Assembly (NCBI RefSeq): GCF_003970675.1
Contig: NZ_CP034562.1
Location: 1,302,001 to 1,366,000 of the forward strand
Origin: Flammeovirga pectinis
GTDB taxonomy: Bacteria > Bacteroidota > Bacteroidia > Cytophagales > Flammeovirgaceae
Direction: 5' to 3'
DNA: 64,000 nucleotides
In this document: positions 7,928 to 28,800 of the stretch, in pieces
Layout of the letters: every line of letters begins with the position of its first letter
Position numbering within the stretch: the stretch's first letter is position 1
Translations under genes and position numbers: made by a program
The notes under the pieces: generated by a model
The model's input: the letters and a program-made list of their open reading frames with translations, nothing else
Databases searched by the model: none
What the model was told of the DNA's origin: nothing

Positions 7928-8959
7928 TTATCTCTGTGTACTAGATTCTCTTTTTATGAGTTTACTTTTAATAATCTCAGTTCTTGGTTTAAACTCTTTA
8001 TCTTTTTCTTCGGCTTTAATTTGCTCAAGAAGAAGAGTTGCAGCTTGTATTCCAATATCAATACCTGATTGCTCTATTGAAGTTAAAGGTGGTTCGAGTA
8101 ACTTAGACAAGCGCCAATCTCCAAAACCTACAATTGAGATGTCTTCGGGTATTTTTAGACCTTTATTTTTTACCGAAGTCATAGCACCAATTGCTGTAAC
8201 ATCATTATTTGCAAAAATGGCATCAAAACTTAAATCAGAATCTAAAAGTTGTTTGGTAACTTCTGTAGCTTCTTTTAAGTCTCCAAGCGGGCAAGGAATA
8301 ATTAAGTTGTCATCAACAGCTATTTTATAATCTCTAAGAGCAGCTTTGTAACCTTCTTTTCTATTAATTCCAATAGCAAGATTATTAGGACCACTTAAAT
8401 GGACTATTTTTTTACAACCTTGCTTAATTAAATGTTCTGTAGCCAAATAAGCACCATGGTGGTCGTCTGTAATTACTTTACTAACATCAAGTTCATCAGA
8501 AACTCTGTCAAACATTACCAAAGGAACACCTTTACGAACTAAGCTTTGAAGGTGAGATAAATCAGTAGTTTTCTTTGTAGTTGAAATTAATAAACCATCA
8601 ACTCTACTAGAATACATTGCTTTTGTATCTACTACCTCTTGTTCTATACTTTCATTAGAAATACAAATCATAACATTATAACCTTCATTATAAGCTACAG
8701 TTTGAACTCCTGAAATAACATTGGCAAAAAAGTCATGGACAATTTCTGGAACTATAATACCTAGCACAAAAGATTTATTGTGTCTTAAACTTAGAGCTAA
8801 TGAATTAGGTTGGTAGTCCTTTTCTTTAGCCAGTTTGTTGACAGCATTTTTAGTATCCTGGCTGATATCTGGATGATTTTTGAGAGCACGTGAAACGGTT
8901 GATTTAGAAATCCCCAATTCATTTGCAATATCTTGCATTGTGTATTGCTCTTTCCTCAT
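7928..8959 (-). CDS. LacI-family transcriptional regulator of the starch locus
   Basis: This 343-residue protein has the typical LacI layout. The N-terminal helix-turn-helix is MQDIANELGISKSTVSRAL (about residues 8-26) with the hinge helix region following. A periplasmic-binding-protein-like effector domain covers about 60-335 and shows VLGIIVPEIVHDFFANVISG, DGLLISTTK and DAIFANNDVTAIGAM. It is divergent from susC and is the only regulator gene in the locus. Sites with a central CG of the kind LacI proteins bind lie 107 bp upstream of its own start (9066-9075) and before two transcription units of the same locus, so autoregulation and control of the locus are likely. It resembles the MalR/SusR-like LacI regulators of Bacteroidota by position; the inducer, probably a maltodextrin, is inferred. 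The ATG at 8959 leaves the helix-turn-helix at the normal place. Confidence 0.88.
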   Translation of the reverse strand: MRKEQYTMQDIANELGISKSTVSRALKNHPDISQDTKNAVNKLAKEKDYQPNSLALSLRHNKSFVLGIIVPEIVHDFFANVISGVQTVAYNEGYNVMICISNESIEQEVVDTKAMYSSRVDGLLISTTKKTTDLSHLQSLVRKGVPLVMFDRVSDELDVSKVITDDHHGAYLATEHLIKQGCKKIVHLSGPNNLAIGINRKEGYKAALRDYKIAVDDNLIIPCPLGDLKEATEVTKQLLDSDLSFDAIFANNDVTAIGAMTSVKNKGLKIPEDISIVGFGDWRLSKLLEPPLTSIEQSGIDIGIQAATLLLEQIKAEEKDKEFKPRTEIIKSKLIKRESSTQR

Positions 8960-9062: not shown

Positions 9063-9075
9063 GCGCAACCGATTG
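9063..9075. promoter_or_regulatory. LacI-type operator, copy 1
   Basis: The half-symmetric site CAACCGATTG (9066-9075, pattern CAA-N-CG-N-TTG with a central CG) is preceded by CG. The ten bases before that (AAAAAAATTG) end like the partner half of copies 2 and 3 but lack the central CG. It lies 107 bp upstream of the regulator start and about 540 bp upstream of susC. Confidence 0.6.
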
Positions 9076-9384
9076 AAAAATGAAATTTCATTTTTTTTGT
9101 GTTTTTCTCAGTAAAACTTCAATATTTTTTCATTGTGTTTTTACACCCCCTAAAATGTGTACAAACTACGTGTTTCTATAAGGTTGTGTAATAATCGTTA
9201 AATCTCTTAAATAGTCTTAAATAGAATTTTATATATGTAAAATGATATTTAGTAGTATTATTGTTCTGTTTTAATTTAATTTTTTAATTAAAAATATTGT
9301 GTTAAATTAAAGCTATGTTAAAGGCTATTAAAAAATTCAAAGTCTTTTAACTTAAAGTTTTTTAATAAAAGTGAAAAATAATTC

Positions 9385-9414
9385 TTTGTACTAAAAGAAT
9401 AAGTCACTATTTTG
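9385..9414 (+). promoter_or_regulatory. susC: Possible Bacteroidota-type promoter of susC
   Basis: TTTG at 9385-9388 and TATTTTG at 9408-9414 are separated by 19 bp. This resembles the -33 TTTG / -7 TAnnTTTG promoter of Bacteroidota, one base short in the -7 box. The same TATTTTG stands before several other genes of the window. Confidence 0.4.
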
Positions 9415-9614
9415 CATTAGCAACGAAGGAAAAACTGGATTTGCTAATTGTATTTTTTCAAGATTGGATTGGATTAACATACATGTGATCTTTAAATGGA
9501 AATGAAAAAAGATTCATCTAATTAAAAATATTACACTGATATGATCTATTGTAATTAATTCTATTCTAATCCTATTTTTAATAAATACCTGTCTATTTGT
9601 CTAATTGTTTAAGT

Positions 9615-12600
9615 ATGAAAATGAGCATTAACTCTACATGGCGTTTAGCTACAACGATGCTACTTTTATTGTTCTCTTTAGTGACATTCGCTCAAGATAG
9701 AACTGTACAAGGTACTGTTGTAGATGAAAATGGCGACCCACTACCGGGTGTGGCTGTTTTAGTTAAAGGTACTACTAAAGGTGGTACAACCGATTTTGAC
9801 GGTAAATTCAAAATTTCACTTGCAGATGGCGATGATGTATTAGTTGTAAGTTACATTGGTTACATGGCACAAGAGGTGCCTGTAGGAAATGCAGCAACAA
9901 TTGATGTGTTTATGGAAGTCGATGCAGAGCAACTTGAAGAAGTTGTAGTAATTGGTTATGGTAGCGTAAAGAAAGAAGATGCTACAGGGTCAGTCCAAGC
10001 TATTAAAGCTTCTGATTTTAACCAAGGTGCAATTACTTCTCCTCAAGAATTATTAAATGGTAAAGTAGCTGGTGTTCAAATGACGAACTCTGGTGGTGCT
10101 CCTGGTGCTGGATCAACAATCCGTATTCGTGGAGGGTCTTCTTTATCAGCTTCTAATGATCCTTTAATTGTAATTGATGGTGTACCAATTGATAACGAAG
10201 GTGTCACAGGTATGCAAAACCCTTTAAACACAGTTAACCCTAATGATATTGAAACATTTACAGTTTTAAAAGATGCATCTGCAACTGCAATTTACGGTTC
10301 AAGAGCATCAAATGGAGTAATTATTATTACAACTAAGAAAGGTTCAAGTGGTAAGTTAAAAATTGATTATTCGGGTAATGTATCTGTGGCTACAGTGCCA
10401 AAGAAAATCGATGTTTTAAATGCTAATGAATTTACTGAAGTATTAAAACAAAGATATCCTAACCAAGCTGCAGTTACAGACTTATTGGGTTCAAATAATA
10501 CAGACTGGCAAGATCAAGTATATTCAAATGCAATATCTACTGATCATAATGTTGCTGTTGGTGGTTCAATTGCAGATGTTGTTCCTTTTAGAGCGTCTGT
10601 TGGTTACACTTACAATGATGGTATCCTAGAGACTTCTCACATGGATAGAACTACTGTGGCATTAAACTTAACTCCTTCATTATTAGATGATCATTTAAAA
10701 GTAAATGTGAATGCTAAATATATGAATGTTCAAAATACATTTGCTGACAATGGTGCAATTGGTAGTGCTTTACGTTACGATCCTACTCAACAAGCTAAAG
10801 ATCCTTCAAGTGAATTTGATAGATTTGGAGGTTACCATTCATGGTTAGATGCAGGTACAGGTGATCCAATCACTATTGCAACTGCTAACCCAAGAGCTCT
10901 TTTAGATCAAAAGGCAAACACTTCTGGTGTAAATAGATTTGTAGGTAATGCACAGTTAGATTATAAATTTCACTTCTTACCTGAATTAAAAGCTAATTTG
11001 AATTTAGGTTACGATTACTCTAAATCTGATGGTAAAACATTGGTACCTACAAATGCAGCATTCATGTATGCTAGTGGTGGCCAGTATTCTCCTTATAAAC
11101 AAGAGAAAAAGAATGAATTATTAGACTTTACTTTACAGTATGTTAAAGATCTTGAGTCAATTGATTCTAGATTAGATGTGATGGTAGGTTATTCATGGCA
11201 ACATTTCTGGAGAGAGGAATATAGTTACACAAACAACTATAATAATGATCAAACTCCTCCTCAACAACCAGAAAAAATCTTCCGTACGGAATCTTACATT
11301 GTTTCATTCTTTGGACGTTTAAATTATACATTCAAAGATAGATATCTTTTGACTGCAACTGTTCGTCAAGATGGAACGTCAAGATTTTCTCCTGAAACAA
11401 GATTTGGTTTATTCCCAGCATTAGCTTTCGCTTGGAATATCAAGAAAGAAGGGTTCTTATCTACATCTGATGCAGTAAGTTCTTTAAAATTACGTTTAGG
11501 ATGGGGTATTACTGGACAACAAAATATCGGAAATGGAGATTATCCATATTTGAATACATATACTGCCTCTCAAAATACTGCAGATTATGAGTTTTATTTA
11601 CCTGATGGTTCTCCATATTATTCTACAACAATGCGTCCAGGTGGATACGATAAAAATATCAAATGGGAAGAAACTACTACTTATAACATTGGTTTAGATT
11701 ATGGTTTCTTAGATGATAAAATTACTGGTACACTTGATGTTTATCAACGTTATACTACAGATTTACTTAACGTGATTCCTGTACCAGCTGGATCTAATTT
11801 AACTAACCAATTATTAACTAATGTTGGTGATTTAGAAAATAAAGGTGTAGAATTCTCGATTAATTATAAGGCTATTTCTACTTCTGATTTCCATTGGGAT
11901 CTTGGATACAATGTAACTTATAACGAGAATAAAATTACGAAATTGACACAAGTAAATGATCCAAATTACAAAGGAGTATTTACAGGAGGTATTGCTGGTG
12001 GTACTGGTAATACAATTCAAATTCATTCAGAAGGGCATTCTGCAAGTTCTTTCTTTGTTTATGAACAAGTTTACAACAATGATGGAAAACCATTAGAAGG
12101 TGTTTACGTTGATCAAAATCAAGATGGTTTAATTAACGATGATGATAAAGTTAGAAAAGAAGACCCTGCTCCAACAGTATATATGGGTATTACTTCTAAA
12201 ATGACTTATAAGAATTGGGATTTCTCATTAGCAGGTCGTTGGAACTTTGGAAATTATGTATACAATAACGTAGCTTCTAATAGTGCATATTATGCAGGTA
12301 TGTACACAACAACAGGTGGTGGTTACTTAAGTAACTTAAATAGTGATATTAAAAATACAGAATTTGAAAACCCTCAGTATTTTTCTGATTACTACTTACA
12401 AAATGCTTCATTCTTCCGTCTTGATAACATCATGTTAGGTTACAATTTCAATAATATTAAAAATGGTGCAATCTCTATGAGAGTATATGGTACTGTAAAT
12501 AATGTTTTTGTTGTAACACCTTACAAAGGTCTTGACCCAGAAATCAGCGGAGGTATTGATAATGATGTATACCCTCGTCCAAGAACATTCTTGGTAGGTG

Positions 12601-12617
12601 TTAATGTTGGATTCTAA
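9615..12617 (+). CDS. susC: SusC/RagA-type TonB-linked outer membrane transporter
   Basis: The 1000-residue protein is the energised outer membrane channel that imports glycan oligomers bound by its SusD partner. After a signal peptide ending TFAQ it has a carboxypeptidase-regulatory-like domain (VQGTVVDENGDPLPGV, to about residue 110). The SusC plug follows, beginning EEVVVIGYGSVKKEDATG and including PLIVIDGVP and ASATAIYGSRASNGVIIITT. A large beta-barrel ends in the aromatic-terminated strand FLVGVNVGF. The frame can be extended to a TTG at 9597, but the ATG at 9615 leaves a normal signal peptide and is preferred. It is followed 14 bp later by susD, and the locus contains two amylases, so starch or maltodextrin is the likely cargo. 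Confidence 0.95.
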   Translation: MKMSINSTWRLATTMLLLLFSLVTFAQDRTVQGTVVDENGDPLPGVAVLVKGTTKGGTTDFDGKFKISLADGDDVLVVSYIGYMAQEVPVGNAATIDVFMEVDAEQLEEVVVIGYGSVKKEDATGSVQAIKASDFNQGAITSPQELLNGKVAGVQMTNSGGAPGAGSTIRIRGGSSLSASNDPLIVIDGVPIDNEGVTGMQNPLNTVNPNDIETFTVLKDASATAIYGSRASNGVIIITTKKGSSGKLKIDYSGNVSVATVPKKIDVLNANEFTEVLKQRYPNQAAVTDLLGSNNTDWQDQVYSNAISTDHNVAVGGSIADVVPFRASVGYTYNDGILETSHMDRTTVALNLTPSLLDDHLKVNVNAKYMNVQNTFADNGAIGSALRYDPTQQAKDPSSEFDRFGGYHSWLDAGTGDPITIATANPRALLDQKANTSGVNRFVGNAQLDYKFHFLPELKANLNLGYDYSKSDGKTLVPTNAAFMYASGGQYSPYKQEKKNELLDFTLQYVKDLESIDSRLDVMVGYSWQHFWREEYSYTNNYNNDQTPPQQPEKIFRTESYIVSFFGRLNYTFKDRYLLTATVRQDGTSRFSPETRFGLFPALAFAWNIKKEGFLSTSDAVSSLKLRLGWGITGQQNIGNGDYPYLNTYTASQNTADYEFYLPDGSPYYSTTMRPGGYDKNIKWEETTTYNIGLDYGFLDDKITGTLDVYQRYTTDLLNVIPVPAGSNLTNQLLTNVGDLENKGVEFSINYKAISTSDFHWDLGYNVTYNENKITKLTQVNDPNYKGVFTGGIAGGTGNTIQIHSEGHSASSFFVYEQVYNNDGKPLEGVYVDQNQDGLINDDDKVRKEDPAPTVYMGITSKMTYKNWDFSLAGRWNFGNYVYNNVASNSAYYAGMYTTTGGGYLSNLNSDIKNTEFENPQYFSDYYLQNASFFRLDNIMLGYNFNNIKNGAISMRVYGTVNNVFVVTPYKGLDPEISGGIDNDVYPRPRTFLVGVNVGF

Positions 12618-12631
12618 TTGAAGAAATAATA

Positions 12632-14257
12632 ATGAAATTAAATAATATAAAAAGAACGCTAGCTGTTGTTGCATCAGTTGCAGCACTATCGTTCACATCA
12701 TGTGTAGGTGATTTGGATACGACTCCAATTGATCCTAATACAATTTCGGGAGCAGATGTTTTCGATGACCCGTCAAATTATACAAAAGCCTTGGCTAAAT
12801 TATATTCAGGCTATGTTGTAACAGGTCAAGTAGGTCCTGCAGGTGATGCAGATATTGGAGGTATTGATGAAGGTGCTTCTCAATATATTCGTAGATACTG
12901 GGAGCTTCAACAATTTCCAACTGATGAAACAATCAATGGTTGGGCAGATGGTAACTTACCAAAATTAAGTTACATGTCTTGGGGTTCTAACAACGAGTTT
13001 ATATCTGCTTTGTATTCAAGAATTTTCTATCAAATATCTATTTGTAATGAATTTATACGTAATACAAAAGATACAGATATTGTAGTTGATGGTCTGTCAA
13101 CTAAAGAAATGTACAATGAGGCTCGTTTCTTAAGAGCATATTCTTATTGGCATGCCTTAGATTTATTCGGGAATGGTATACCATTTACAACAGAAGCTGA
13201 TGGTGTTGGTAAATTTTTACCAAACCCTGCTGGTAAATTAAATGGACCAGAATTGTTTAATTACATTTCTTCTGAATTAAGAGCTGTAGAAGCTGATTTA
13301 TCAGCACCTGCTCCTGGAGCAGAAACAGGTAGAGCAAACCAAGCTGCTGCATGGATGTTATTATCTAGGTTATATTTAAATGCAGAGTCTTACGGGCAAC
13401 CTGCTAAATATGATAGTGCATTACTTTATACAAATAAAGTATTGAATTCAGGTTATGCTTTGGTAACGAATAATCAAGGTTCTACATATTCTGCATATCA
13501 AACTTTATTTTTAGCAGATAATAATACTTCTGGAAGTGAAATTATTTGGTCGCATAACGAAAATGGTTTAAGATCTAAATCATATGGTGGTTCTGCATAT
13601 CTAATTCATGCTTCTATTGGAGGTACTATGGATGCTACAGAATTTGGTGTGAATGGTGGATGGGGCGGTAATCGTTCTATGAAAACATTAACTCAAACTT
13701 TACAATATAAGTCAGTTGATGATAGAAACTTAGTCCACACAGATGGTCAAAAAGAAGAGATTAATGATCCAACTCAGTTTACCGAAGGTTATGCAATCGC
13801 TAAATTCCGTAATAAAACAAGAGCTGGAGCTCAAGGTTCAGATCCTACAGGTGACTTTGTAGATACAGACTTTATTGTATTTCGTTTAGCTGAAGCATAT
13901 TTGAATTACGCTGAATTAGCGGCAAGAGGTGTTGCAGGAGCTTCTCAATCTCAAGCATTAAACTATGTAAATGCATTATATACTAGAGCAAATGTACCTG
14001 TAGCAGAACACCTTAAAGCTTCTGAAGTGAATGTTGAACAAATAATTAAATATGAACGTTCAAGAGAGCTTTATTGGGAAGGTTTAAGACGTACAGATTT
14101 GATAAGATTAGGTCAATTTACTGGAGGTGCTTATGTTTGGCAATTTAAAGGTGGCGTTAAAGATGGTGCTTCAACATCATCTATCTATAATGTTTGTCCA
14201 ATACCTTCATCTGATTTAGGAGCAAACCCTAATTTAGTTCAAAACCCTGGTTATTAA
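12632..14257 (+). CDS. susD: SusD/RagB-type glycan-binding outer membrane lipoprotein
   Basis: This is a 541-residue lipoprotein with a signal peptide and lipobox FTSC, with Cys at about residue 23. It has the alpha-helical TPR-like SusD fold, recognisable from YNEARFLRAYSYWHALDLFG near residue 165, from WMLLSRLYLNAESYG and from the C-terminal KYERSRELYWEGLRRTDLIR. It caps the SusC channel and binds the incoming oligosaccharide. The start ATG at 12632 is 14 bp after susC. The 3' flank carries a strong hairpin with no T run, which may separate the message of susCD from that of the next gene. Confidence 0.95.
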   Translation: MKLNNIKRTLAVVASVAALSFTSCVGDLDTTPIDPNTISGADVFDDPSNYTKALAKLYSGYVVTGQVGPAGDADIGGIDEGASQYIRRYWELQQFPTDETINGWADGNLPKLSYMSWGSNNEFISALYSRIFYQISICNEFIRNTKDTDIVVDGLSTKEMYNEARFLRAYSYWHALDLFGNGIPFTTEADGVGKFLPNPAGKLNGPELFNYISSELRAVEADLSAPAPGAETGRANQAAAWMLLSRLYLNAESYGQPAKYDSALLYTNKVLNSGYALVTNNQGSTYSAYQTLFLADNNTSGSEIIWSHNENGLRSKSYGGSAYLIHASIGGTMDATEFGVNGGWGGNRSMKTLTQTLQYKSVDDRNLVHTDGQKEEINDPTQFTEGYAIAKFRNKTRAGAQGSDPTGDFVDTDFIVFRLAEAYLNYAELAARGVAGASQSQALNYVNALYTRANVPVAEHLKASEVNVEQIIKYERSRELYWEGLRRTDLIRLGQFTGGAYVWQFKGGVKDGASTSSIYNVCPIPSSDLGANPNLVQNPGY

Positions 14258-14264
14258 TTCAATA

Positions 14265-14296
14265 CTTCCTACACTGTAACCATACAGTGTAGGAAG
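14265..14296 (+). other. Strong intercistronic hairpin between susD and the susE-like gene
   Basis: CTTCCTACACTGTA (14265-14278) and TACAGTGTAGGAAG (14283-14296) form a perfect 14-bp stem with a 4-nt loop. It is followed by AATAAATTTTTG rather than a clean T run. It could act as a partial terminator or as an mRNA-end stabiliser for susCD. Confidence 0.7.
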
Positions 14297-14319
14297 AATA
14301 AATTTTTGATAAGATACAA

Positions 14320-15468
14320 ATGAAAAATTTAAATAAATTTTGTGTAGGACTTTCGTTATTGGCTGCAATGACAGCCTGTAAAGAAAATACTACAGAACCA
14401 AAAATTTCTTCAGATACTTATGTATCTGCAGAACTTTTACCTGAATCTGTTGATTCAAATAACATTTATGTCATTACTGAAGAGGCAGTGAATAATGAAG
14501 ATTCAGTATTCTCTACTTTTATGTGGACTCCATCAGATTATTCTGGTGTTAATCTTCAAAGAAACTATGTTCTTGAACTATCAAATACAGAAGACTTTGC
14601 AGTTACACAAGCATTAGGTGCTACAGCGGCAGATGAAACTCCTGTAAATTACGCTACAATGAATAATGCTGTTTTGGCATTAGGTTTATCTGCGGGTAAT
14701 GCACACAAAGTATATTCAAGAGTTGTGACTACAGTTACACCTAATGTAGATACTTTATATTCAAGTAATTTAGCATTTACTGTTAATCCAGTTTTTATTG
14801 CAATTAATTACCCTAAAGTATATATGCCAGGAGATTTCTCTGGTTGGAACAATAATGCTCCAAATTATACATTAGCATCATTGAATTTTGATGGTAATTA
14901 TGAAGGATATATGCCTTTAACAGTTAAAGAAGATGGAACTCCTGCAAATGGTGAATTTAAATTTGTAACAATTGGTGGTGACTGGGAATCTCAATACGGT
15001 TTAACATCAGCGGGTCTTCCTGCAGATAATCCTGTAGACTTGATTTCTAAGTCAGCTAACGGAGGTTCAGATCCTGGAAACTGTAATATACCAACAGGTA
15101 TTTCAACAACAGCTCAACAATATAGAGTTGAAGCTACAATTTTTGATGGTGCAGATGAAGGTTCTTATACACTTACTCCTGTTGCTTGGGGTGTTATTGG
15201 TGACGCAACTGGAAGCTGGGATGCTGATCAAGATATGACATATGTTCGTGCTTCAAACACATGGACTATAGATATTGATTTAGTTGTTGGTGAAATGAAG
15301 TTTAGAGCTAATGATGATTGGGCAATAAACTTTGGTCAAGGTGATTCAGGAGATAATTCTTTAAAATTTAATGCGGGTAATATCAAAATTACTGAGGCAG
15401 GAAATTATACTGTGACAATGGATTTATCAACGGCTCCAAATTGGTCATATACTTTGCAAAAGAACTAA
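14320..15468 (+). CDS. SusE/SusF-like starch-binding outer membrane lipoprotein
   Basis: This 382-residue lipoprotein has the lipobox MTAC (Cys at about 20). The N-terminal SusE-type immunoglobulin-like domain covers about 30-165. A carbohydrate-binding-like module starting YMPGDFSGWN follows at about 170-285. The C-terminal module begins WGVIGDATGSWDADQD and is rich in aromatic residues, as expected for starch-binding SusE/F domains. It is the third gene after susC and susD and should sit on the cell surface holding starch near the SusCD pore. Its C-terminal ~90 residues are a close paralogue of the C-terminus of the next lipoprotein. Function is inferred from family and position. Confidence 0.85.
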   Translation: MKNLNKFCVGLSLLAAMTACKENTTEPKISSDTYVSAELLPESVDSNNIYVITEEAVNNEDSVFSTFMWTPSDYSGVNLQRNYVLELSNTEDFAVTQALGATAADETPVNYATMNNAVLALGLSAGNAHKVYSRVVTTVTPNVDTLYSSNLAFTVNPVFIAINYPKVYMPGDFSGWNNNAPNYTLASLNFDGNYEGYMPLTVKEDGTPANGEFKFVTIGGDWESQYGLTSAGLPADNPVDLISKSANGGSDPGNCNIPTGISTTAQQYRVEATIFDGADEGSYTLTPVAWGVIGDATGSWDADQDMTYVRASNTWTIDIDLVVGEMKFRANDDWAINFGQGDSGDNSLKFNAGNIKITEAGNYTVTMDLSTAPNWSYTLQKN

Positions 15469-15495
15469 TTTGTAAATAATATAAGTTTATTTTTT

Positions 15496-15533
15496 AAGGT
15501 CTTCTTCCTCATATGGAAGAAGACCTTTTTTTA
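15496..15533 (+). terminator. Terminator after the susE-like gene
   Basis: A 13-bp stem, AAGGTCTTCTTCC (15496-15508) with its complement at 15515-15527, has a 6-nt loop and runs into a T tract. It closes the susCDE transcription unit, so the next lipoprotein needs its own promoter. Confidence 0.9.
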
Positions 15534-15544
15534 TTTATAAAACT

Positions 15545-15571
15545 CAATCGGTAGCGCAATCGGTTTCGATT
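15545..15571. promoter_or_regulatory. Tandem LacI-type operator, copy 2
   Basis: CAATCGGTAG (15545-15554), then CG, then CAATCGGTTT (15557-15566), then CGATT. This is two ten-base sites with central CG separated by two bases. The reverse complement matches copy 3 (16630-16656) at 25 of 27 positions. It stands between the terminator and the start of the second lipoprotein gene. Confidence 0.75.
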
Positions 15572-15726
15572 AAATACTTGAAAATGAGGTGTTTAATTTT
15601 TTTATTGTTGTTTTAATTTACATATATTGACATATCAAAAAAAGAGAAAGTGTACCTCGTTGTGGTTTCAGCTTTCTAGTGCGCACAACTTTTTGAATAA
15701 CTTTTTACTATTAATTTTAATTGAAA

Positions 15727-16575
15727 ATGAAAATGAAAAAGCTAAACTTTTTATCAGCTTCACTACTATTTATTTTATCTGCATTTATATTTTCTTCTTG
15801 TTCAACTGATGAGCTAGAAGCAATTGTAGAAGATTTAATTCCAGAAAGTTCTCAGTTAACAGCTCCAACTAATACGGAAGCGGTTTTACAAGCTAGTGAA
15901 GTAGACAATGTCTTTGAAACATATACATGGACTGAAGCAAGTTTTGGTGATGAGAAAGCGAATAACTATGAACTTTCGATTTATTATGGTGGTGGTGTTG
16001 TAGTACTAAAAGAAACAACAGAACTATCTGCAGCCGTAACAGTAGGAGAAATGGATGCAGCAATAAAAGAAGCAGCAGGAAGTTTTGAAGACGCAGGTGA
16101 TGCTGTCTCATTCAAAATTGGTGTTGTAAGTCATTTCAATAATGAAGTTGTAACAGTTTCTGACCCTCATGATTTGACAGTTACAACAATTGCTGTTGTA
16201 GAAGATAACACAGAAGAACCTGCTGAAGAACCAGGAGAAGAAGATAACAGTGAAGAACCTACAGATAGAGTTGCTCATGAAAATGATGGCTTATGGGGTG
16301 TTATTGGTGACGCAACAGGAAGTTGGGATGCAGATCAAGATCTACTTTATAATGCTGAAACAGAAGTATATTCTATAACTTTAGATCTTGTTTTAGGTAA
16401 TATAAAATTTAGAAAAAGTGATGATTGGGCTGTAAATTTAGGTGGTACTACTGAAGCTTTAGTTCACGATGGAGATAACATTGCTATTACAGAAGCTGGT
16501 AATTATACTATTGAGTTAACAGTTGATGAATCTGGTGATTCTGCTGTTGGTACTTTTACAATGACCAAAAATTAA
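15727..16575 (+). CDS. Second SusE/F-like surface lipoprotein with acidic linker
   Basis: The product has 282 residues from the ATG at 15727; a TTG at 15721 and an ATG at 15733 are alternatives. The lipobox is FSSC. A SusE-type Ig-like domain covers about 35-155. It is followed by a Glu/Pro-rich acidic linker (about 157-185) and a starch-binding-like C-terminal module beginning WGVIGDATGSWDADQD. The module is nearly the same as in the preceding lipoprotein even at the DNA level, showing a duplication. It lies between two LacI-type operators and two terminators, so it is a transcription unit of its own under the same control. It probably adds starch-binding capacity at the cell surface (inference). 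Confidence 0.8.
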   Translation: MKMKKLNFLSASLLFILSAFIFSSCSTDELEAIVEDLIPESSQLTAPTNTEAVLQASEVDNVFETYTWTEASFGDEKANNYELSIYYGGGVVVLKETTELSAAVTVGEMDAAIKEAAGSFEDAGDAVSFKIGVVSHFNNEVVTVSDPHDLTVTTIAVVEDNTEEPAEEPGEEDNSEEPTDRVAHENDGLWGVIGDATGSWDADQDLLYNAETEVYSITLDLVLGNIKFRKSDDWAVNLGGTTEALVHDGDNIAITEAGNYTIELTVDESGDSAVGTFTMTKN

Positions 16576-16582
16576 TTAGACA

Positions 16583-16625
16583 AAAAGAGTAGAATAGGAT
16601 TTATCTTATTCTACTCTTTTTTTAT
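16583..16625 (+). terminator. Terminator after the second lipoprotein gene
   Basis: AAAAGAGTAGAATA (16583-16596) pairs with TATTCTACTCTTTT (16607-16620) and is followed by more T residues. Confidence 0.88.
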
Positions 16626-16629
16626 TTTT

Positions 16630-16656
16630 AATCGAAACCGATTGCGCTATCGGTTG
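16630..16656. promoter_or_regulatory. Tandem LacI-type operator, copy 3
   Basis: AATCG, then AAACCGATTG (16635-16644), then CG, then CTATCGGTTG (16647-16656). It has the same 10-2-10 layout as copy 2 but in the opposite orientation. It lies 107 bp before the amylase start; a TATTTTG box at 16688-16694 lies just downstream. Confidence 0.75.
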
Positions 16657-16762
16657 ATCGTAAATAACTGATAATTAATATTTTATATATTTTGATTCGT
16701 TAGGTGTTATTAATACCTTTATGATTGAAAATGAAAGAACTACTAACATTTAATACGAGTTT

Positions 16763-19700
16763 ATGAGAAAGTATTTACTTAATCTAATTTTCTTAGTGAC
16801 TTCAATTGCTGTATTATCATTACAGGCAAATGGACAAACTATTTCAACATCACCAACTAATGTAACTGCATTGACTGAAAATGTTAAGATTACATTTAGT
16901 GTTGCAGGTACTGACCTCGCAGGAGAAGATAATCTTTATATTTGGGGATGGAGTAATGTAGGAGATTTCCTTACAAATGGTACAGAATGGAATGCTTCTC
17001 AAGATGCAGCTAAACTTACCAAAGTAACAGATGAAACATATACTTACGAATTTCCAATAACTCATAATACTGCTTCATATAAAACATTTGCAGATATTGT
17101 TGGAGTATCAAATGATCCAACATCTTTAAAAACAATTGGTTGTTTAGTAAAAACAAAAGACGGTGAAAAGAAAACAGGTGATTTAAGTATTACATTAAGT
17201 GATTTATCTGTAGCTGTTAATGTATCTTCTCCTCTTAAAAATGATATCTTTAAACAAGGAGATAATGTAGTAATTTCAGCTACATCACCATCAAGTTCAA
17301 AGTTAATAATAAAAGTAAATTCTACTGTTGTAAAAGAATTAACAGGAACATCTATATCTCATACAATTCAAAGTGTATCAAGTGGAGACCTAAATATAGA
17401 GGTTTCAGCTAGTGCTGATGGTTTAACAGCAATAGAAAAATTAGATTATTTTGTAGGAGCTACTGTTGTGAAAGCAGATAGACCTTCGTATGCATCATTA
17501 TTAGGTCCAAACTACAATGGAACAGAAGTTACTGTTGTATTACAAGATCCTGCTAAATTAAAGCAATTTGTGAATGTTATAGGGAGTTTTAATAATTGGG
17601 GTGATACAGGTGCGTACTCTATGAAATTAGATGTTGAAACTGATGCTAATTATTGGTGGTATACATTCTCAAGTTTAGATGCTAATCAAGAATATATTTA
17701 TCAATTTCTTATAGATGGTAATTTGATAATTGCAGATCCTTATACTGAAAAGGTATCTGATGAACAAGATAAGTACATTAATGATGGTTATGAGAGATAT
17801 CCAAATTTAATAGCGTACCCTACTGAAGCAAGTGGTTTAAAGGCATCTATTTTACAAATAAATCAAACAGAGTATGTTTGGAAAAACACATCTTTTCAGC
17901 CTGTATCAATTGGTGAAGCCGTAGTATATGAAATGTTAATCAGAGATTTTTCTAAATCATCTACATATGAAGAAGCTATAGCTGAATTAGATAAAATACA
18001 AGCTCTAGGTGCTAATACAATTCACCTTATGCCTGTGAATGAATTCGATGGTAATAGTTCTTGGGGATATAATCCTTCTTTCTATTTTGCTCCTGATAAG
18101 TATTATGGATCAAAAAATAAATTAAAAGAATTTATAGATGAAGCACATGGAAAAGGAATGGCTGTTGTTTTAGATTTGGTTTTAAATCATTCAACTCAAT
18201 CTTCTCCATTCTGTCAAATGTATAATAATGGTGAAATTTATGATGCTCCAAATGCCAGTAATCCTTGGTATAATGAAGAATCAAATTTTGATAATGATGC
18301 TGTAAAAGGTTGGGGTCCTGATTTTAATCATGAAAGTGAATATACTCAAGCATTGGTTGATAGTATTAATGCACATTGGATGAAATATTACAATGTGGAT
18401 GGTTATCGCTTTGACTTTACGAAAGGTTTTGGTAATAATCCAAAAACAGGAAGCGATGATTGGGGTAGTAAATACGATCAAGATAGAATTGATTTATTAG
18501 TAAGAATGACTAATGAAATCAAAAAGAGAAACCCTAACGCTTATGTAATCTTTGAACACTTATCAGATCTTGATGAGGAACAAGCTTTAGCAAAAGAAGG
18601 AATTACACTTTGGGGAAATGCAAATCATGATTTTAGAGAAGTTGTAAAGGGTGGTAATGCAAATTTAGATTGGCAATCACCTAAAACTAGAGATATGCCT
18701 ATAACAGGAGTGATGTCTTATATGGAATCTCATGATGAAGAACGTTTAATTTATGATTCCGAAGCTAACGGACAAGTATCTCAATTGTATGATTTAACAG
18801 ATTTACAAAATGGTGTAGATAGAGAGAAGTTAGCAGCAGGATTTTTCTTTATGGTTCCTGGGCCAAAAATGATATGGCAATTTGGAGAGTCAGGCTATAA
18901 TGTATCAATAAATCAAAGCGAATATCAAGGTGAGGTTAATGATGGTAACAGAACAAGTGAAAAACCATTAATATCTGATTTTGATACTCAAAATGATGCT
19001 ATAAGAAAGCAATTATCAGATGTGTATACAGCTCTAATTAAACTAAGAAATGATTATGATTTAGGAGATCTAGCAGATGATCAATATACTTTTGATTTAA
19101 AAAGTGAGATGAAAACTATTTCTTTAGATAAAGGGGCAATTCATATTAGAATAGTAGGTAATTTTTCATTGAATGAAGAATCACATACCTATGATTATTC
19201 TGATGCTAGTTCAACATGGTATAGTTATTTTAATGATGGTGATGAAGTTAATGCATCTGGAACATTTACTCTAAAAGCATCAGAATTTAAAGTTCTTACT
19301 AATATTAGAGTAACAACTCCTGTGGATGGTTTAGTTACTGGATTTGAAAGAATTTTTGAGGTTAATCCTTATGGATTTAAACAAGATGAGGAAATTAAAA
19401 TATATTTTGATCCTAATGCATCAGATAAAACTTTTGGAACATCTATTACGCTAGAAGCAGGTGTTGTATTAGATAGCCATGGAAGTGGAAATATATCTAA
19501 TAAAAACACTATTTCAATGACTAAAGAAGGGAATAAATATGTGGCTTCATATGTACCTAATGACTTTTTTAGTTTATCATCGACAGATAAACCATTCCAA
19601 ATGTCTTTAAAAGTATCTGATACACAAGGTGTAACAGAAGGAGAGTATTTTGTTGACTTTGAAGAGAACAATAAAAAGTTATTTCTTGTAGGGGATATTT

Positions 19701-20230
19701 TAGGTAACGGTTGGGACCTTTCATCTGCTATAGAAATGAAAAGTGACGGAGAAGGAGGGTTTGTATTAGAATCTGTTCAATTGACTAAAGGAGAATTTTT
19801 TAAAATAATTGACGAAAAGTCTTGGAATGGTGGACAATGGGGACATGCAGGACCTAATAAGCTTAAAGCATCTACTTATGGAGATGATATAGAAGTAACG
19901 TCTACAGGTAACCAGACTATACGTGCTAATATTAATGATTTAACATATTCAATTGAAAATCCAAATGCAATTGAGGATAACAAAACCTCTCAATCCATAA
20001 AAGCATACCCAAACCCTACAAGTTCTCTTGTTCAATTTACAGGAACTGTTTTAGCAGGTCAAGTAGAGGTTTTAGTTAGAGATAATATGGGTAGAGTTAT
20101 TAGTACTTTTGAACAATTTGCTACAAATAACACTATAAATATTGATTTATCATCTTTTCCAGTAGGTATGTATTATGTCGAGCTGCTTACCGTTAATGAT
20201 AAGGCAATCAAGAAAATAATAAGGCAATAA
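16763..20230 (+). CDS. T9SS-secreted GH13 alpha-amylase with starch-binding modules
   Basis: The 1155-residue protein has a signal peptide ending QANGQ. N-terminal beta modules include a glycogen-binding-like domain (VIGSFNNWG region, about 270-350). The GH13 barrel shows region I VVLDLVLNHS (about 468), the nucleophile Asp551 in GYRFDF, the acid Glu598 in VIFEHLSD and Asp658 in ESHDEER. A beta domain follows, then a SusF-like module starting LFLVGDILGNGWD (about 972). The C-terminal T9SS sorting domain runs from AYPNPTSS to KKIIRQ. It cuts starch outside the cell and is exported by the type IX system. It has its own operator and terminator. It is much longer than classic amylases because of the added modules. 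Confidence 0.92.
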   Translation: MRKYLLNLIFLVTSIAVLSLQANGQTISTSPTNVTALTENVKITFSVAGTDLAGEDNLYIWGWSNVGDFLTNGTEWNASQDAAKLTKVTDETYTYEFPITHNTASYKTFADIVGVSNDPTSLKTIGCLVKTKDGEKKTGDLSITLSDLSVAVNVSSPLKNDIFKQGDNVVISATSPSSSKLIIKVNSTVVKELTGTSISHTIQSVSSGDLNIEVSASADGLTAIEKLDYFVGATVVKADRPSYASLLGPNYNGTEVTVVLQDPAKLKQFVNVIGSFNNWGDTGAYSMKLDVETDANYWWYTFSSLDANQEYIYQFLIDGNLIIADPYTEKVSDEQDKYINDGYERYPNLIAYPTEASGLKASILQINQTEYVWKNTSFQPVSIGEAVVYEMLIRDFSKSSTYEEAIAELDKIQALGANTIHLMPVNEFDGNSSWGYNPSFYFAPDKYYGSKNKLKEFIDEAHGKGMAVVLDLVLNHSTQSSPFCQMYNNGEIYDAPNASNPWYNEESNFDNDAVKGWGPDFNHESEYTQALVDSINAHWMKYYNVDGYRFDFTKGFGNNPKTGSDDWGSKYDQDRIDLLVRMTNEIKKRNPNAYVIFEHLSDLDEEQALAKEGITLWGNANHDFREVVKGGNANLDWQSPKTRDMPITGVMSYMESHDEERLIYDSEANGQVSQLYDLTDLQNGVDREKLAAGFFFMVPGPKMIWQFGESGYNVSINQSEYQGEVNDGNRTSEKPLISDFDTQNDAIRKQLSDVYTALIKLRNDYDLGDLADDQYTFDLKSEMKTISLDKGAIHIRIVGNFSLNEESHTYDYSDASSTWYSYFNDGDEVNASGTFTLKASEFKVLTNIRVTTPVDGLVTGFERIFEVNPYGFKQDEEIKIYFDPNASDKTFGTSITLEAGVVLDSHGSGNISNKNTISMTKEGNKYVASYVPNDFFSLSSTDKPFQMSLKVSDTQGVTEGEYFVDFEENNKKLFLVGDILGNGWDLSSAIEMKSDGEGGFVLESVQLTKGEFFKIIDEKSWNGGQWGHAGPNKLKASTYGDDIEVTSTGNQTIRANINDLTYSIENPNAIEDNKTSQSIKAYPNPTSSLVQFTGTVLAGQVEVLVRDNMGRVISTFEQFATNNTINIDLSSFPVGMYYVELLTVNDKAIKKIIRQ

Positions 20231-20371: not shown

Positions 20372-22261
20372 ATGCGGATTAAATCACTAATTATCACCCT
20401 ATTGCTATCTATGCTATCGCTAACATTGTTTTCTAAATCAAAAATTACGGTAGATAAAGTTGAGCCCTCTTTTTGGTGGGTTGGTATGAAAAATTCGACT
20501 TTACAAGTAATGATTCATGGAGATAATATATCTTCAACTAAACCAAAAATTGAATATAAAGGTGTTGTATTAAAACAATCAATACAAGTTACGAGCCCTA
20601 ATTATTTAGTCTTATATCTTGAAATTACAGAAGAAACTCTCCCAGGTAAAGTACCCATTCAATTTCTAGCAAACGGAAAAGTTATTCATACGATAAACTA
20701 TGAGTTGAAGGCACGAGAAAGTATTGACAATAAAAATATTGGTTTCGATCCATCAGATGTAATTTACTTATTAATGCCTGATAGGTTTGCGAACGGGGAC
20801 CCAACAATAGATAATGTTGAGGGCATGACTCAAAAAATGAATAGAGAAGAACCTTACGGTCGTCATGGTGGAGATTTGAAGGGTATTGCAGATCATCTAA
20901 ACTATTTTACAGATCTTGGTGTAACAGCACTTTGGTTGAACCCGGTACAAGAAAACAATTCTTCAGAACAATCTTATCATGGGTATGGAATGACAGATCT
21001 ATATAAAGTTGATCCAAGATTTGGTACAAACGAAGAGTATAAAGCATTAGTAAAAGCCTGCCATGATAATGATTTAAAAGTAGTAATGGATTTGGTCTTT
21101 AATCATATTGGTTCTGACCATTGGTGGATGAATGATCTTCCAATGTCAGATTGGTTAAACCATCAATCTTATTGGGAAGATGGAAAAAAAGAAAGTGAAT
21201 ATTACGGCACAAATTATCAAGTAACAAAACAATTAGATCCTTATGCATCTAAAGAAGATTTTGATCAGAATGTTGAGGGGTGGTTTACACCAAAAATGCC
21301 CGATTTAAATCAAAATAACCCAATACTTGCAGATTATATTATTCAAAATACTATTTGGTGGATTGAATATGCTGGCTTAAATGGTATCAGAATGGATACT
21401 TTTGGATATGCTTATAAAGCTTTTGCATCCAGATGGACAAAAGAAATTATGGAGGAGTATCCTCAGTTTAATATCGTGGGAGAGATTTTAGTAAAAGAAA
21501 CTCCTGTGGCTTCTTACTTTGCAGGTGGGGCTAATAATTTAGATGGGTATGATTCTTATCTTCCTTCTGTAACTGATATGCCTTTATCTTTTGCTGCTAA
21601 TGCGGCTTTTAGCCCTGAAAATGATGCTCCTGATTGGAATAGCCCAATGCGTCAATTAGCCAATCACCTTACGCAAGATTATCTTTTCCCTGACCCTTAT
21701 AATTTGGTTACTTGCTTAGATAATCATGATGTAAACAGGGTGATGTCTAATTTAAAAGATCCAGAAAGAGTGAAGTTGGCGTTGACATTTTTATTAACGA
21801 CTAGAGGTATTCCTCAAATTTATTACGGTACTGAGTTATTGTATGAAGGTTTTGAGTCTGATCATGCTTCATTACGTTTAGATTTTCCTGGAGGATGGGA
21901 AGGAGACGAACGTAGTGCTTTTGAGCTAGAAGGTAGAACAGCTATTGAAAATGATGTTTACGATTACCTTAAAAATATATTGCAATGGCGAAAAAGTAAT
22001 TCAGCTATTCATAAAGGCAAACTAATTCATTATATACCAAATGATGATGTCTACGTTTATTTTAGAAAAACAGTAGAAGAAACTGTTATGATAATTATTA
22101 ATAATAACGAGGAAAAAGTAGTTACAATAGATACATCTAATTTTGAAAGTGCTATTAGTGGAGCAACAAAAGGAAAAGAAATAATATCTGGTATAGTATA
22201 TTCAGATATTAGTACTATCAAAATTAATGGTAAACAAGCAATGATTTTAGAATTACAATAA
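20372..22261 (+). CDS. susA: Periplasmic GH13 neopullulanase/cyclomaltodextrinase-type enzyme (SusA-like)
   Basis: The 629-residue protein has a signal peptide (about 1-22) and no sorting tail, so it should be periplasmic. The N-terminal beta domain starts VEPSFWWVGMKNSTLQVMIHG, typical of cyclomaltodextrinases. The catalytic barrel has VVMDLVFNHIG (Asp240), the nucleophile Asp342 in GIRMDTFGYA, the acid Glu371 in IVGEIL, and Asp453 in CLDNHDVNR. A small C-terminal beta domain ends the protein. It fits SusA, which breaks imported maltooligosaccharides. No LacI-type operator is seen in its short upstream region and a terminator precedes it, so its promoter must be separate or read-through must occur. 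Confidence 0.88.
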   Translation: MRIKSLIITLLLSMLSLTLFSKSKITVDKVEPSFWWVGMKNSTLQVMIHGDNISSTKPKIEYKGVVLKQSIQVTSPNYLVLYLEITEETLPGKVPIQFLANGKVIHTINYELKARESIDNKNIGFDPSDVIYLLMPDRFANGDPTIDNVEGMTQKMNREEPYGRHGGDLKGIADHLNYFTDLGVTALWLNPVQENNSSEQSYHGYGMTDLYKVDPRFGTNEEYKALVKACHDNDLKVVMDLVFNHIGSDHWWMNDLPMSDWLNHQSYWEDGKKESEYYGTNYQVTKQLDPYASKEDFDQNVEGWFTPKMPDLNQNNPILADYIIQNTIWWIEYAGLNGIRMDTFGYAYKAFASRWTKEIMEEYPQFNIVGEILVKETPVASYFAGGANNLDGYDSYLPSVTDMPLSFAANAAFSPENDAPDWNSPMRQLANHLTQDYLFPDPYNLVTCLDNHDVNRVMSNLKDPERVKLALTFLLTTRGIPQIYYGTELLYEGFESDHASLRLDFPGGWEGDERSAFELEGRTAIENDVYDYLKNILQWRKSNSAIHKGKLIHYIPNDDVYVYFRKTVEETVMIIINNNEEKVVTIDTSNFESAISGATKGKEIISGIVYSDISTIKINGKQAMILELQ

Positions 22262-25825: not shown

Positions 25826-28800
25826 TTAGTTGATTAGAATCTTTTCATGATATGTTGTAGAGGTAGTGTTTACTTCTAACACATATAAACCAGACTGTAT
25901 TCCATTTACATTAACAGTGGTATTTTTACCAGAAGTGTTAAATGAAACCGGAAAAAGCTTACCAGATTGATCAAATATTCTAATTGTATTCACTTTACCA
26001 ATTGATGTAGATATATTCAATACATCAGTTGCCGGTTGAGGGAATATAGATATTGTAATTTGAGAGGCTAAATCATCAACACTATTAATTACATCACTCT
26101 GTATAGTATACTCTTCTGAGTACATTGTACAACCACTATTGTTAATAACTTCCACCATATAATCACCTGGAGCATTAGCAGAAATTTCTGTACCAGATTG
26201 ATCAATTAACTCTCCATCTAGATACCAGAAATAGTTATAAGAACTACCTGGGTTTTCAACAAATAAAGAATCTTGATTAACTACAATCTGTGGAGTTAAT
26301 AATTGGTTGGATTGTGCAACTATAATACTATCAGAAAAAGCAATACAACCATTTAGGTTTCTGATTTTAACAGAGTATGTACCTTGTTCATGTATTGTGA
26401 TTGCAGATGAAGTTAATAATGGCAATAATTCATCATTTTTATACCAAGAAAAAGTGAGATTACTAGCTGTACTATTGGCTTGTAATTGAGCCTCAATCTC
26501 TTCACCGAAACAGAATATAGTAGTTGTGTTTGCTTGTAAAGCAACATCTAAATCATCTCCACAGTCTATACCTATACCTATTTCTGCTACTTTAATAGAT
26601 AGGTTACTCCAATAAGTATGTGTGATAAAACAGCTATAAACTCCAACGTCATTATTTGACATATTTTCGAATACCAATGTTTTAGATCCTAACGAAGGTT
26701 GAATTACACCATCCTTATACCAAGTATATGTTAACCCATCTAATGAAATTGGAAGATTAAAAGTATAATCACCTCCAGAAATCATAGCAATAGATTCATA
26801 GTAAATAATATAATTTTGAGGAGAATAAGCCAAGTTTTGATCGTTGAAACCATCAAAATCGTCAAAGAATAAATAGTTGTCTGCTACATTAACCTCAATT
26901 GTAGAAGGTATGTTACTTAATGATGTTAAAAGATTACTGTAAAGTATTAATTCTTCCAAGCCACTTGGTAACATGTTATCCCAAACAGACAATTCATTCC
27001 TAGAGAAATTCAATTTCTTAAGGTTAATTAAATCGGAGAAGTCCATGGTAATTGTTGTAATACCATTACCGGCAATCGAGAAGTTTGTTAGACTTGTTAA
27101 CCCTGAAAGTTCTTCACTAATTGAAATTATTGAGTTATCGTCAATAATTAGATTTTGCAACTTAGAATTCCCTGTTAAGTTAGGCATTAAAGTTAAGTTG
27201 TTATTGCTTAACCAAAGAGTAGTAAGATTCGTGAAATCTTGAATTCCGCTAATGTTGTTATCATTAATATTATTATTAGACAAATCTAAATATTCAATTC
27301 CTGTCAATGTCCATAAACTATCAGAAAGAGTGGTAATACCACTGTTATATAGTTTTAATGATTTTAAATCTGTAAACCTACCAATTAAATCAGGAAGTTC
27401 ACCATTGGTTTCTAACTCATGAAGATTTAACCCAACAATCTTTCCGTTATCATCAAACTCCATTCTAGGCCACAAGACAATACGTTCTGAAGGATCAAAA
27501 TCAACATTCAAGTATGTATAAAGTTCAAATAATGCAGCAGAGTCTTCTTCACTAATTAAGCTTTGATAAACTAAGTTAATAGTAGAAGTTTCAATTGAAA
27601 GTCCTTCCCATAAAGATGGGTGTGATACTTTTAAACTATATGCACCTTCTTTAGAAATATTGAAGTCTACAACATTTAATTGAGGAGTATTTGCATTAGC
27701 AACAATTTCACCATTAAAATACCATTGATAAACTAAATCACCCTCATATCCTTCAATAGAGTAATTATTATCAAAATTATCATACTGAACTATATTATAT
27801 GTTTCTTCGACCTTGTTATAATTTTGAGGATTATAAGTTATAATCTCTGATAAATTTTTCACACCATCTAAATCGTCAAAGAACAAAAGATTGTTTTCTA
27901 ATTTAATTGACGTTAAGTAGTTAAATGATAATAACTGAGAGGGGAGTGAAGTTAATAAATTATCATTTCCATCAATATCAAAAGCAGATAAATCTATAGT
28001 GATTAATCTACCATAATTATCAATTTCTGTTCTTTCACCTAACCAAGTTCTAAATTCATCTTGGTTAGAATAGTTTGTATAGCCAATTTCATCTAATAGT
28101 TGCTTAACTAGAAGAGAATCTTCATTTCCTAAAGTATAGGTTAGGTTTAATTCTGCAATTTTAATATCTAAATTATCCACTTCAGAACTAGAAACAATTA
28201 ATCTTATTATTCCTGTACTATCACCTGTGGCAAAGTTGATATTATAAAGTGAATTGTTACCTATTTGAATATTTTCTGTATTGTACCAATTATATTCTAA
28301 AGACTCGAAACCTTCTAATTGTCCTTGGTAGGAATAACTATTTCCATACGAAATGGTATCGTAAAGACTGATGAAATTATAAGTTTGTTCTTCGTAAGAA
28401 ATATTATAATCTAAATATGGTTCGATGTCATCAAAGAAAAGTTTATTATTGCTGATATCTAAAACATCGAGATTAATGAAATTATTAATGTTAGAAGGTA
28501 GATTAGTTAAATCTCGCCCGCTAATATCAATACTTGTTACATAACCCGTCGAGTCAATAATTACAATATTTTCGTCTTCATCCCAAAGTCTCATATCGTC
28601 CGTAGACTCAGTATCGACTCCAATTTCAGTTAATAATGTTTTTAATTCGTCTTTATCTGCATTGCCTAATACGTGATTAATATCATATTGATGAATTTGA
28701 ATAGCTAACCCACTAACATTATCATGTTGTACAGATAGAATATAAGTATCAGCATCATTAATAGTCATAGGGTTGATAGCAAAGCTAGAAGTGTTAGAAA

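Follow-up and report, generated by a model that had tools for sequence, protein, structure and literature searches.

Single and overlapping LacI-type operator candidates in a Flammeovirga starch locus point to a probable alpha-glucan regulon

Introduction

The window analysed here, a stretch of 64,000 base pairs (bp) from the Flammeovirga pectinis genome (G000:C1:1302001-1366000; genome size 6,680,108 bp), holds a starch locus in which the gene of a LacI-family regulator adjoins susC- and susD-like genes, and in which a 27-bp element stands twice, before a second susE-like gene (susE2) and before the gene of a secreted alpha-amylase. A sequence-only reading of the window had taken each copy for a pair of LacI-type operators belonging to a starch regulon. 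The locus thus raises the questions of what the operator unit is, how two of them are arranged in one element, which protein reads them and which genes it controls. We regard it as probable that the elements would serve as operators of the LacI protein encoded at 7928-8959, and that this protein would be an alpha-glucan regulator that represses the glycogen synthase gene glgA and acts from upstream on genes of alpha-glucan breakdown. Comparisons were made across nine Flammeovirga genomes, the source genome (G000) and eight others, which are not mutually independent. The starch locus is common to all nine, and susC, susD and the amylase gene adjoin lacI in 8/8 of the other loci fetched.

The two copies of the 27-bp element

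As described before, the copies at 15545-15571 and 16630-16656 lie in inverted orientation and match at 25 of 27 positions. This element, in 7 overlapping registers, is the only inverted 27-bp pair in the window with at least 25 matches, and six dinucleotide shuffles gave none. A scan of all 6,680,108 bp of the genome with the 27-mer consensus (up to three mismatches) found two places, both in the starch locus, and the reversed-pattern control found none. The full copies do follow terminator-like stems (15496-15527 and 16582-16621), and the absence of a copy before the susA-like gene also held, in that no exact intergenic AAYCGRTT core, the sequence discussed below, lies before the cyclomaltodextrinase gene at 20372 in G000. 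The statement that each full copy precedes a gene with starch-binding modules is borne out for the gene at 15721, whose matches exceed the Pfam cut-off, and only weakly for that at 16763, whose SusF_SusE and CBM_48 matches fall below it.

The putative operator unit

The alignments show the putative operator unit to be a ~16-bp LacI-type palindrome. Its centre is the CG of AAYCGRTT, and it usually has an outer CG step on one side or both. The clearest case lies upstream of lacI, where GCGCAACCGATTGA is identical in 9/9 genomes and the rest of the lacI-susC intergenic region has mostly diverged. At this site the nine genomes agree on either side of AACCGATT but differ to the left of GCGC, which places the centre of the operator on the CG of AAYCGRTT and the outer CG steps six bases from that centre. 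The site had been described as a half-degenerate third copy at 9063-9075, standing between the LacI-type gene and susC; it is an intact putative single operator with 14 bp identical in 9/9 genomes. Its centre precedes the lacI start by ~111 bp and the susC open reading frame (ORF) by >500 bp, lacI being the nearest gene. susC itself has a conserved promoter-like block ~190 bp before its start, distant from the operator at 9063.

The features expected of a LacI-type operator, as the element had been called, are present: an even palindrome of 16-22 bp with a central CG, since AA.CG.TT is invariant in a profile of 24 sequences (20 sites from the nine genomes, both strands, duplicates removed), and a site in the regulator's own promoter in 9/9 genomes. 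Exact intergenic AAYCGRTT cores number 23 across the nine syntenic loci: nine at lacI, nine at the amylase gene, two at susE2, two ~240 bp before susC (G004 and G008) and one at a susE2-like gene (G001). The ten-base site that had been proposed as the unit did not hold up, as on its own it is not enriched (40 against 34.6 expected) and the outer CG steps belong to the unit. A looser single pattern occurs 122 times in the nine genomes, against 66 for the reversed pattern. The motif alone is weak, as detailed below, and the case therefore rests on its conservation at orthologous promoters of related, non-independent genomes.

Pairs of putative operators with a 12-bp period

Each long copy is a pair of overlapping putative operators (A and B) whose centres lie 12 bp apart and which share the GCGC between their cores. 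Before the amylase gene the A core with its GCGC is exact in 9/9 genomes, with the second half at +12, and the susE2 tandem is kept in G003, the sole other genome with susE2 at that position. In the nine genomes the tandem 20-mer has 10 occurrences with up to one mismatch, none of them outside the starch locus, and the element of G001 has three mismatches; with up to three mismatches there are 22 matches against 7 for the reversed pattern.

We scored the similarity to AAYCGRTT at each offset from -40 to +40 around the main core of each promoter (a random 8-mer in the window scores 6/8 at a frequency of 0.016 and 7/8 at 0.0016). The best secondary offset was 12 bp at the amylase gene (mean 6.33/8, nine genomes), at susE2 (7/8, two genomes) and, on the opposite side of the core, at the alpha-glucan phosphorylase gene discussed below (6.0/8 in six genomes, 6.11/8 in nine). 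Within the same range of offsets 12 bp was not the best at lacI, bipA or glgA. The 12-bp period is thus a feature of particular promoters that the rest do not share. Putative single sites are shown at lacI, bipA and glgA, and overlapping 12-bp pairs at the amylase gene, susE2 and phosphorylase, with a diverged form at a second susC (susC2).

The period recurs at another LacI-family gene. A paralogue adjacent to a galactokinase gene carries CGTTACCGG.AACGTT..CGG.AA in its own promoter in 9/9 genomes, and in G004 and G008 this promoter reads CGTTACCGGAAA CGTTACCGGTAA, again with a period of 12 bp (loci L171-L179). The LacI family, the operator type, autoregulation and the link to starch are all ordinary; the unusual variant is that whole putative operators overlap with a period of 12 bp, which recurs at several promoters and for two paralogues.

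Sites beyond the starch locus

Further targets were sought by pattern scans and with a sequence-only profile built from the starch-locus sites alone, and the promoters found were then aligned. The profile scan scored 150 of 1054-2195 first-look candidates per genome, and part of the list of looser-pattern and profile matches was looked up. Because the strict palindrome is not enriched genome-wide, a target was accepted only if the core was conserved at orthologous promoters.

Four promoters passed. At glgA, TATATTTG is followed after two or three bases by CAATCGGTTGAA in 9/9 genomes, so that the core stands directly after the -7 box; it starts 47-64 bp before the start codon. The core of the alpha-glucan phosphorylase gene starts 148-156 bp before the start codon in 9/9, with a second half 12 bp upstream. 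A near-palindromic LacI-like 16-mer is centred 131-155 bp before the start codon of bipA/typA in 9/9 (L126, L134-L136, L200-L202, L217, L219). The second susC/susD pair, which lies beside metH and is 37% (SusC) and 28% (SusD) identical to the starch pair, has AAYCGRTT in 9/9 genomes and, ~50-60 bp away, a diverged 12-bp repeat related to AACMGRTT-GCGC-AACMGGTT. The claim of a starch regulon thus stands as far as the link to starch genes goes and fails as a restriction to starch, and the hits before other genes that the sequence-only reading had named as evidence against itself were found in part, in that each of these four carries the core in 9/9. The regulon would appear to be one of alpha-glucans, joining starch capture with both the synthesis and the breakdown of glycogen; bipA is the member that this leaves unexplained.

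Possible targets, which we do not count as shown, are the DUF4301/TPR intergenic region (with sites in five genomes and in G005), the glycogen debranching enzyme gene of G000 and the pullulanase gene of G004. Matches inside ORFs were dropped, at seven places in G000 (4730094, 4740234, 4088386, 2276748, 2890166, 833596 and C2:1225309) and at L213, L214, L242 and L245 in the relatives; intergenic sites near RecQ helicase, fucosidase, Omp85-domain, GH18 and GH38 genes, each in one genome of those fetched, were not counted. Recurring sites also stand before a short ORF beside a MatE gene in G002, with a similar layout in G005 and G006, and before a 366-amino-acid ORF without a Pfam match in G004, an ORF of the same length being present in G001.

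Near the second susCD pair, two cores lie 51-52 bp (about five helical turns) apart in G000, G003, G004 and G008 (L166:16277/16328, L167:3619/3670, L249:2664/2716 and L204:2944/2996); in G003 and G008 this pair precedes an endonuclease/exonuclease/phosphatase-family gene. Divergent from the second susC/susD and facing the metH-like gene is an S-adenosylmethionine (SAM) riboswitch (RF00162, 77 bits) at L166:9758-9865 (G000:C1), a block that is conserved in the nine-genome alignment.

The probable reader of the sites

The protein encoded at 7928-8959 has an N-terminal helix-turn-helix (HTH) domain (PF00356, 53.9 bits) and a C-terminal domain of the periplasmic-binding type (PF00532, 116.5 bits), as is proper to the LacI family, and the solved structure chains closest to it are those of CcpA. 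Orthologues are present in 8/8 of the other genus genomes, 73-96% identical. LacI-HTH proteins number three in G000, two in G003 and 7-10 in the other seven. Since the only LacI proteins of G003 are the starch LacI and the galactokinase-linked one, and the promoter of the latter carries a different motif (CGTTACCGG), the starch LacI is the likely reader of the sites, as judged from gene content and promoter sequence.

From a set of 40 loci we left out four of Flammeovirga and six others; in 14 of the remaining 30, which lie outside the genus and whose LacI proteins are 35-52% identical, a palindromic AATCGATT core, often TGYAATCGATTRCA, lies within 900 bp upstream of the regulator gene. No clear motif was seen by eye for two other groups of LacI paralogues. 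At a further paralogue, present in six relatives and absent from G000 and G003, the promoters (L033-L038) hold two or three copies of TACAATCGATTGTA or its one-base variant in 6/6 loci, mostly spaced ~107-111 bp, near ten helical turns, which suggests looping.

Alternative readings

The alternative that fares best, although we think it unlikely, is that the LacI protein is a purely local starch repressor and that the sites at glgA, phosphorylase and bipA belong to another factor. Nearly 90% of LacI regulators were local in a large survey (PMC4052901), and the LacI paralogue of the six relatives is itself preceded by the same AATCGATT core in its promoter. However, G000 and G003 lack this paralogue and have the glgA, phosphorylase and bipA sites, the one other LacI-HTH protein of G003 goes with a different promoter motif, and glgA and phosphorylase act in the same pathway as starch use.

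The tandem could also be a single wide palindrome centred on GCGC and bound by one dimer. GCGC is indeed the centre of a quasi-palindrome in the 20-bp element, and at susC2 conservation is higher for GCGCAA than for the centres on either side. At the lacI site, however, it is the left flank of GCGC that varies and both AACCGATT flanks that are fixed, the bipA sites lack a second half and show near-symmetry around AAYCGRTT, and the glgA site lacks GCGC in all nine genomes. We rejected a GCGC-centred reading for lacI, bipA and glgA and retain it as possible for susC2; as an account of the tandem it seems to us improbable.

The sequence-only reading had two dimers side by side, binding the two halves cooperatively. 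In its favour, the second half before the amylase gene is kept in 9/9 genomes, though degenerate, and 12 bp is close to one helical turn. Against it, LacI-family dimers in known structures contact the two half-sites as well as the centre. In the tandem the shared GCGC would serve both as right half-site of A and as left half-site of B, so that the same base pairs would be needed twice, and B is degenerate in most genomes; given the geometry of LacI proteins on DNA, two neighbouring dimers on operators that overlap in this way are unlikely, and one dimer per tandem would be expected.

A non-LacI reader, conceivable in that the link between protein and DNA is predicted from sequence, is very improbable: lacI's own promoter has the even palindrome with central CG in 9/9 genomes, and distant homologues are preceded by this core in 14/30 loci.

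This leaves the reading that we favour, of operators of the starch LacI with targets in both branches of alpha-glucan metabolism, and several observations weigh against it. The strict palindrome CGNAAYCGRTTNCG occurs 24 times in the nine genomes, 7 of these in the starch locus, against 29 for the reversed pattern; the best E-value of the profile in any genome is 0.24; and sites near unrelated genes exist. There is no exact core near the susC promoter of G000. The second halves are degenerate: the B core of the amylase gene has one mismatch in three genomes and two in six, lacking the central CG in G001, that of phosphorylase matches at 6 or 7 of 8 positions, and the susC2 tandem is without a central CG in most genomes. 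bipA, which encodes a ribosome-associated GTPase, has no obvious tie to alpha-glucans. As for the reader, the argument by elimination is confined to G003, as G000 has a third LacI (C2:481537), and in 6/6 the promoter of the paralogue found in six relatives contains TACAATCGATTGTA or a version one base different, which leaves room for two readers of the core there. Among lacI homologues of the same family, the intergenic region upstream of lacI holds the exact core in only 4/10 loci.

A model of opposing control

By sequence position, with start sites predicted, the sites stand directly after the -7 box at glgA (9/9) but upstream of the presumed promoter at the amylase gene. A dimer bound at glgA should, from this position, block transcription. 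The tandem of the amylase gene precedes the presumed start site by ~75-90 bp. Here TACCTTTA is present in 8/9 genomes (TACTTTTA in G001), there are zero indels between it and the operator across the nine genomes, and the TTG-like box shifts by one base between genomes; the block is judged promoter-like by the Bacteroidetes promoter consensus. A sigma-70 scan was uninformative (67 matches against 76.4 expected). Sites that far upstream more often serve activation or control through loops than direct blocking, and from there LacI would be more likely to help polymerase than to block it.

We propose that one dimer would bind a single site; a tandem would likewise take only one dimer at a time, with a choice of two registers that might raise occupancy or seat the dimer at one of two angles. 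Bound at low sugar, the protein would keep glycogen synthesis off and alpha-glucan breakdown and scavenging on, and a ligand of the maltose or glucose-phosphate type would reverse the switch. Such a dual switch is the simplest joint model, in which we infer the sign at the breakdown genes. A wider proposal, which we offer tentatively, is that the 12-bp overlapping operators form a distinct class in Flammeovirga that marks upstream-driven promoters of genes for the capture and breakdown of alpha-glucans, that single sites denote repression or autoregulation, that one LacI would switch glycogen synthesis and breakdown in opposite directions, and that the galactokinase-linked paralogue uses the same architecture with another sequence. 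The tandem with its shared half-site raises the question of whether a LacI dimer binds in two registers, and whether register or occupancy decides between activation and repression.

Comparison with known systems

Cra/FruR and CcpA work in a dual mode, from sites over and upstream of promoters. The Flammeovirga regulon differs from theirs in being small and centred on alpha-glucans; if the model is true, it resembles these global LacI-family regulators in coupling the sugar state to opposing pathways (PMC4052901). In the survey of LacI regulators, which searched palindromes of 14-24 bp and included one Bacteroides group, even palindromes with a central CG are the norm, 72% of regulators are autoregulated, and sites lie mostly 140-30 bp before the start codon (PMC4052901). 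The local sugar regulators described there share with the starch LacI the LacI HTH with a sugar-binding domain, the even palindrome with central CG and autoregulation, and Flammeovirga differs in that part of its operators are overlapping pairs 12 bp apart (PMC4052901).

CytR of enterobacteria, also a LacI-family member, uses direct-repeat operators of closely spaced octamers and acts with CRP; its repeats are half-sites, whereas in Flammeovirga two whole palindromes would overlap (PMC3454398). SusR of Bacteroides thetaiotaomicron likewise controls a starch susCDE locus, but it is a membrane protein whose predicted direct repeats are separated by 67 or 77 bp, whereas the Flammeovirga candidate is a LacI protein with palindromes (PMC3878776). 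Our elements repeat at 12 bp rather than at the 67 or 77 bp of the SusR type, longer spacings not having been scanned for. MdxR of Enterococcus faecium, a Firmicute, is by the title of the paper a LacI-family activator of maltodextrin metabolism (PMC3737153), and the words 'operator', 'binding site' and 'promoter' are absent from the text of that paper.

In the titles and abstract openings searched, which leave subscription papers mostly outside, we found no description of LacI operators overlapping at 12 bp, of the starch LacI itself or of a Flammeovirga starch operator; the accessible text of the Flammeovirga pacifica genome paper (PMC5385347) has neither 'LacI' nor 'operator'. One candidate paper, PMC12125979, was set aside, as it concerns an AraC-type xylose regulator of Vibrio. 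The sites described here would make up a concrete regulon in which a marine Bacteroidetes genus links the use of starch outside the cell with glycogen metabolism inside it, and in which a LacI protein takes the place that SusR has in the textbook system of Bacteroides.

Gene content of the locus

The features of the starch locus are collected in Table 1.

Table 1 Genes and predicted signals of the starch locus, in window coordinates
Feature	Position	Strand	Remarks
LacI-family regulator gene, 343 amino acids	7928-8959	-	Pfam LacI HTH and Peripla_BP_1/3; proposed reader
Putative single operator GCGC-AACCGATT-GA, core 9067-9074	9063-9076		14/14 columns identical in 9/9 genomes
susC-like TonB-dependent receptor gene	9597-12617	+	Pfam; nine-genome alignment
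susD-like gene	12632-14257	+	Pfam; NCBIfam SusD match below cut-off
susE-like gene	14320-15468	+	Pfam
Terminator-like hairpin before first tandem operator	15496-15527	+	
Putative tandem operator before susE2	15545-15571		B core 15546-15553, shared GCGC 15554-15557, A core 15558-15565, outer CG 15567-15568
Second susE/susF-like gene (susE2)	15721-16575	+	Pfam SusE and SusF_SusE above cut-off
Terminator-like hairpin before second tandem operator	16582-16621	+	
Putative tandem operator before secreted amylase	16630-16656		A core 16636-16643, shared GCGC 16644-16647, B core 16648-16655
Amylase promoter-like block	16691-16721	+	TTTG 16691-16694, 19 bp, TACCTTTA 16714-16721
Secreted alpha-amylase gene with type 9 secretion tail	16763-20230	+	SusF_SusE and CBM_48 matches below Pfam cut-off
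Cyclomaltodextrinase (susA-like) gene	20372-22261	+	Pfam

The two susE-like genes have near-identical DNA in common, at 15186 and 16293 of the window, with 25-26 of 27 positions matching over overlapping registers; the sequence suggests a recent domain duplication or conversion. Further downstream, at 25826-37711, lies an ORF of 3961 amino acids with internal direct repeats ~552 bp apart.

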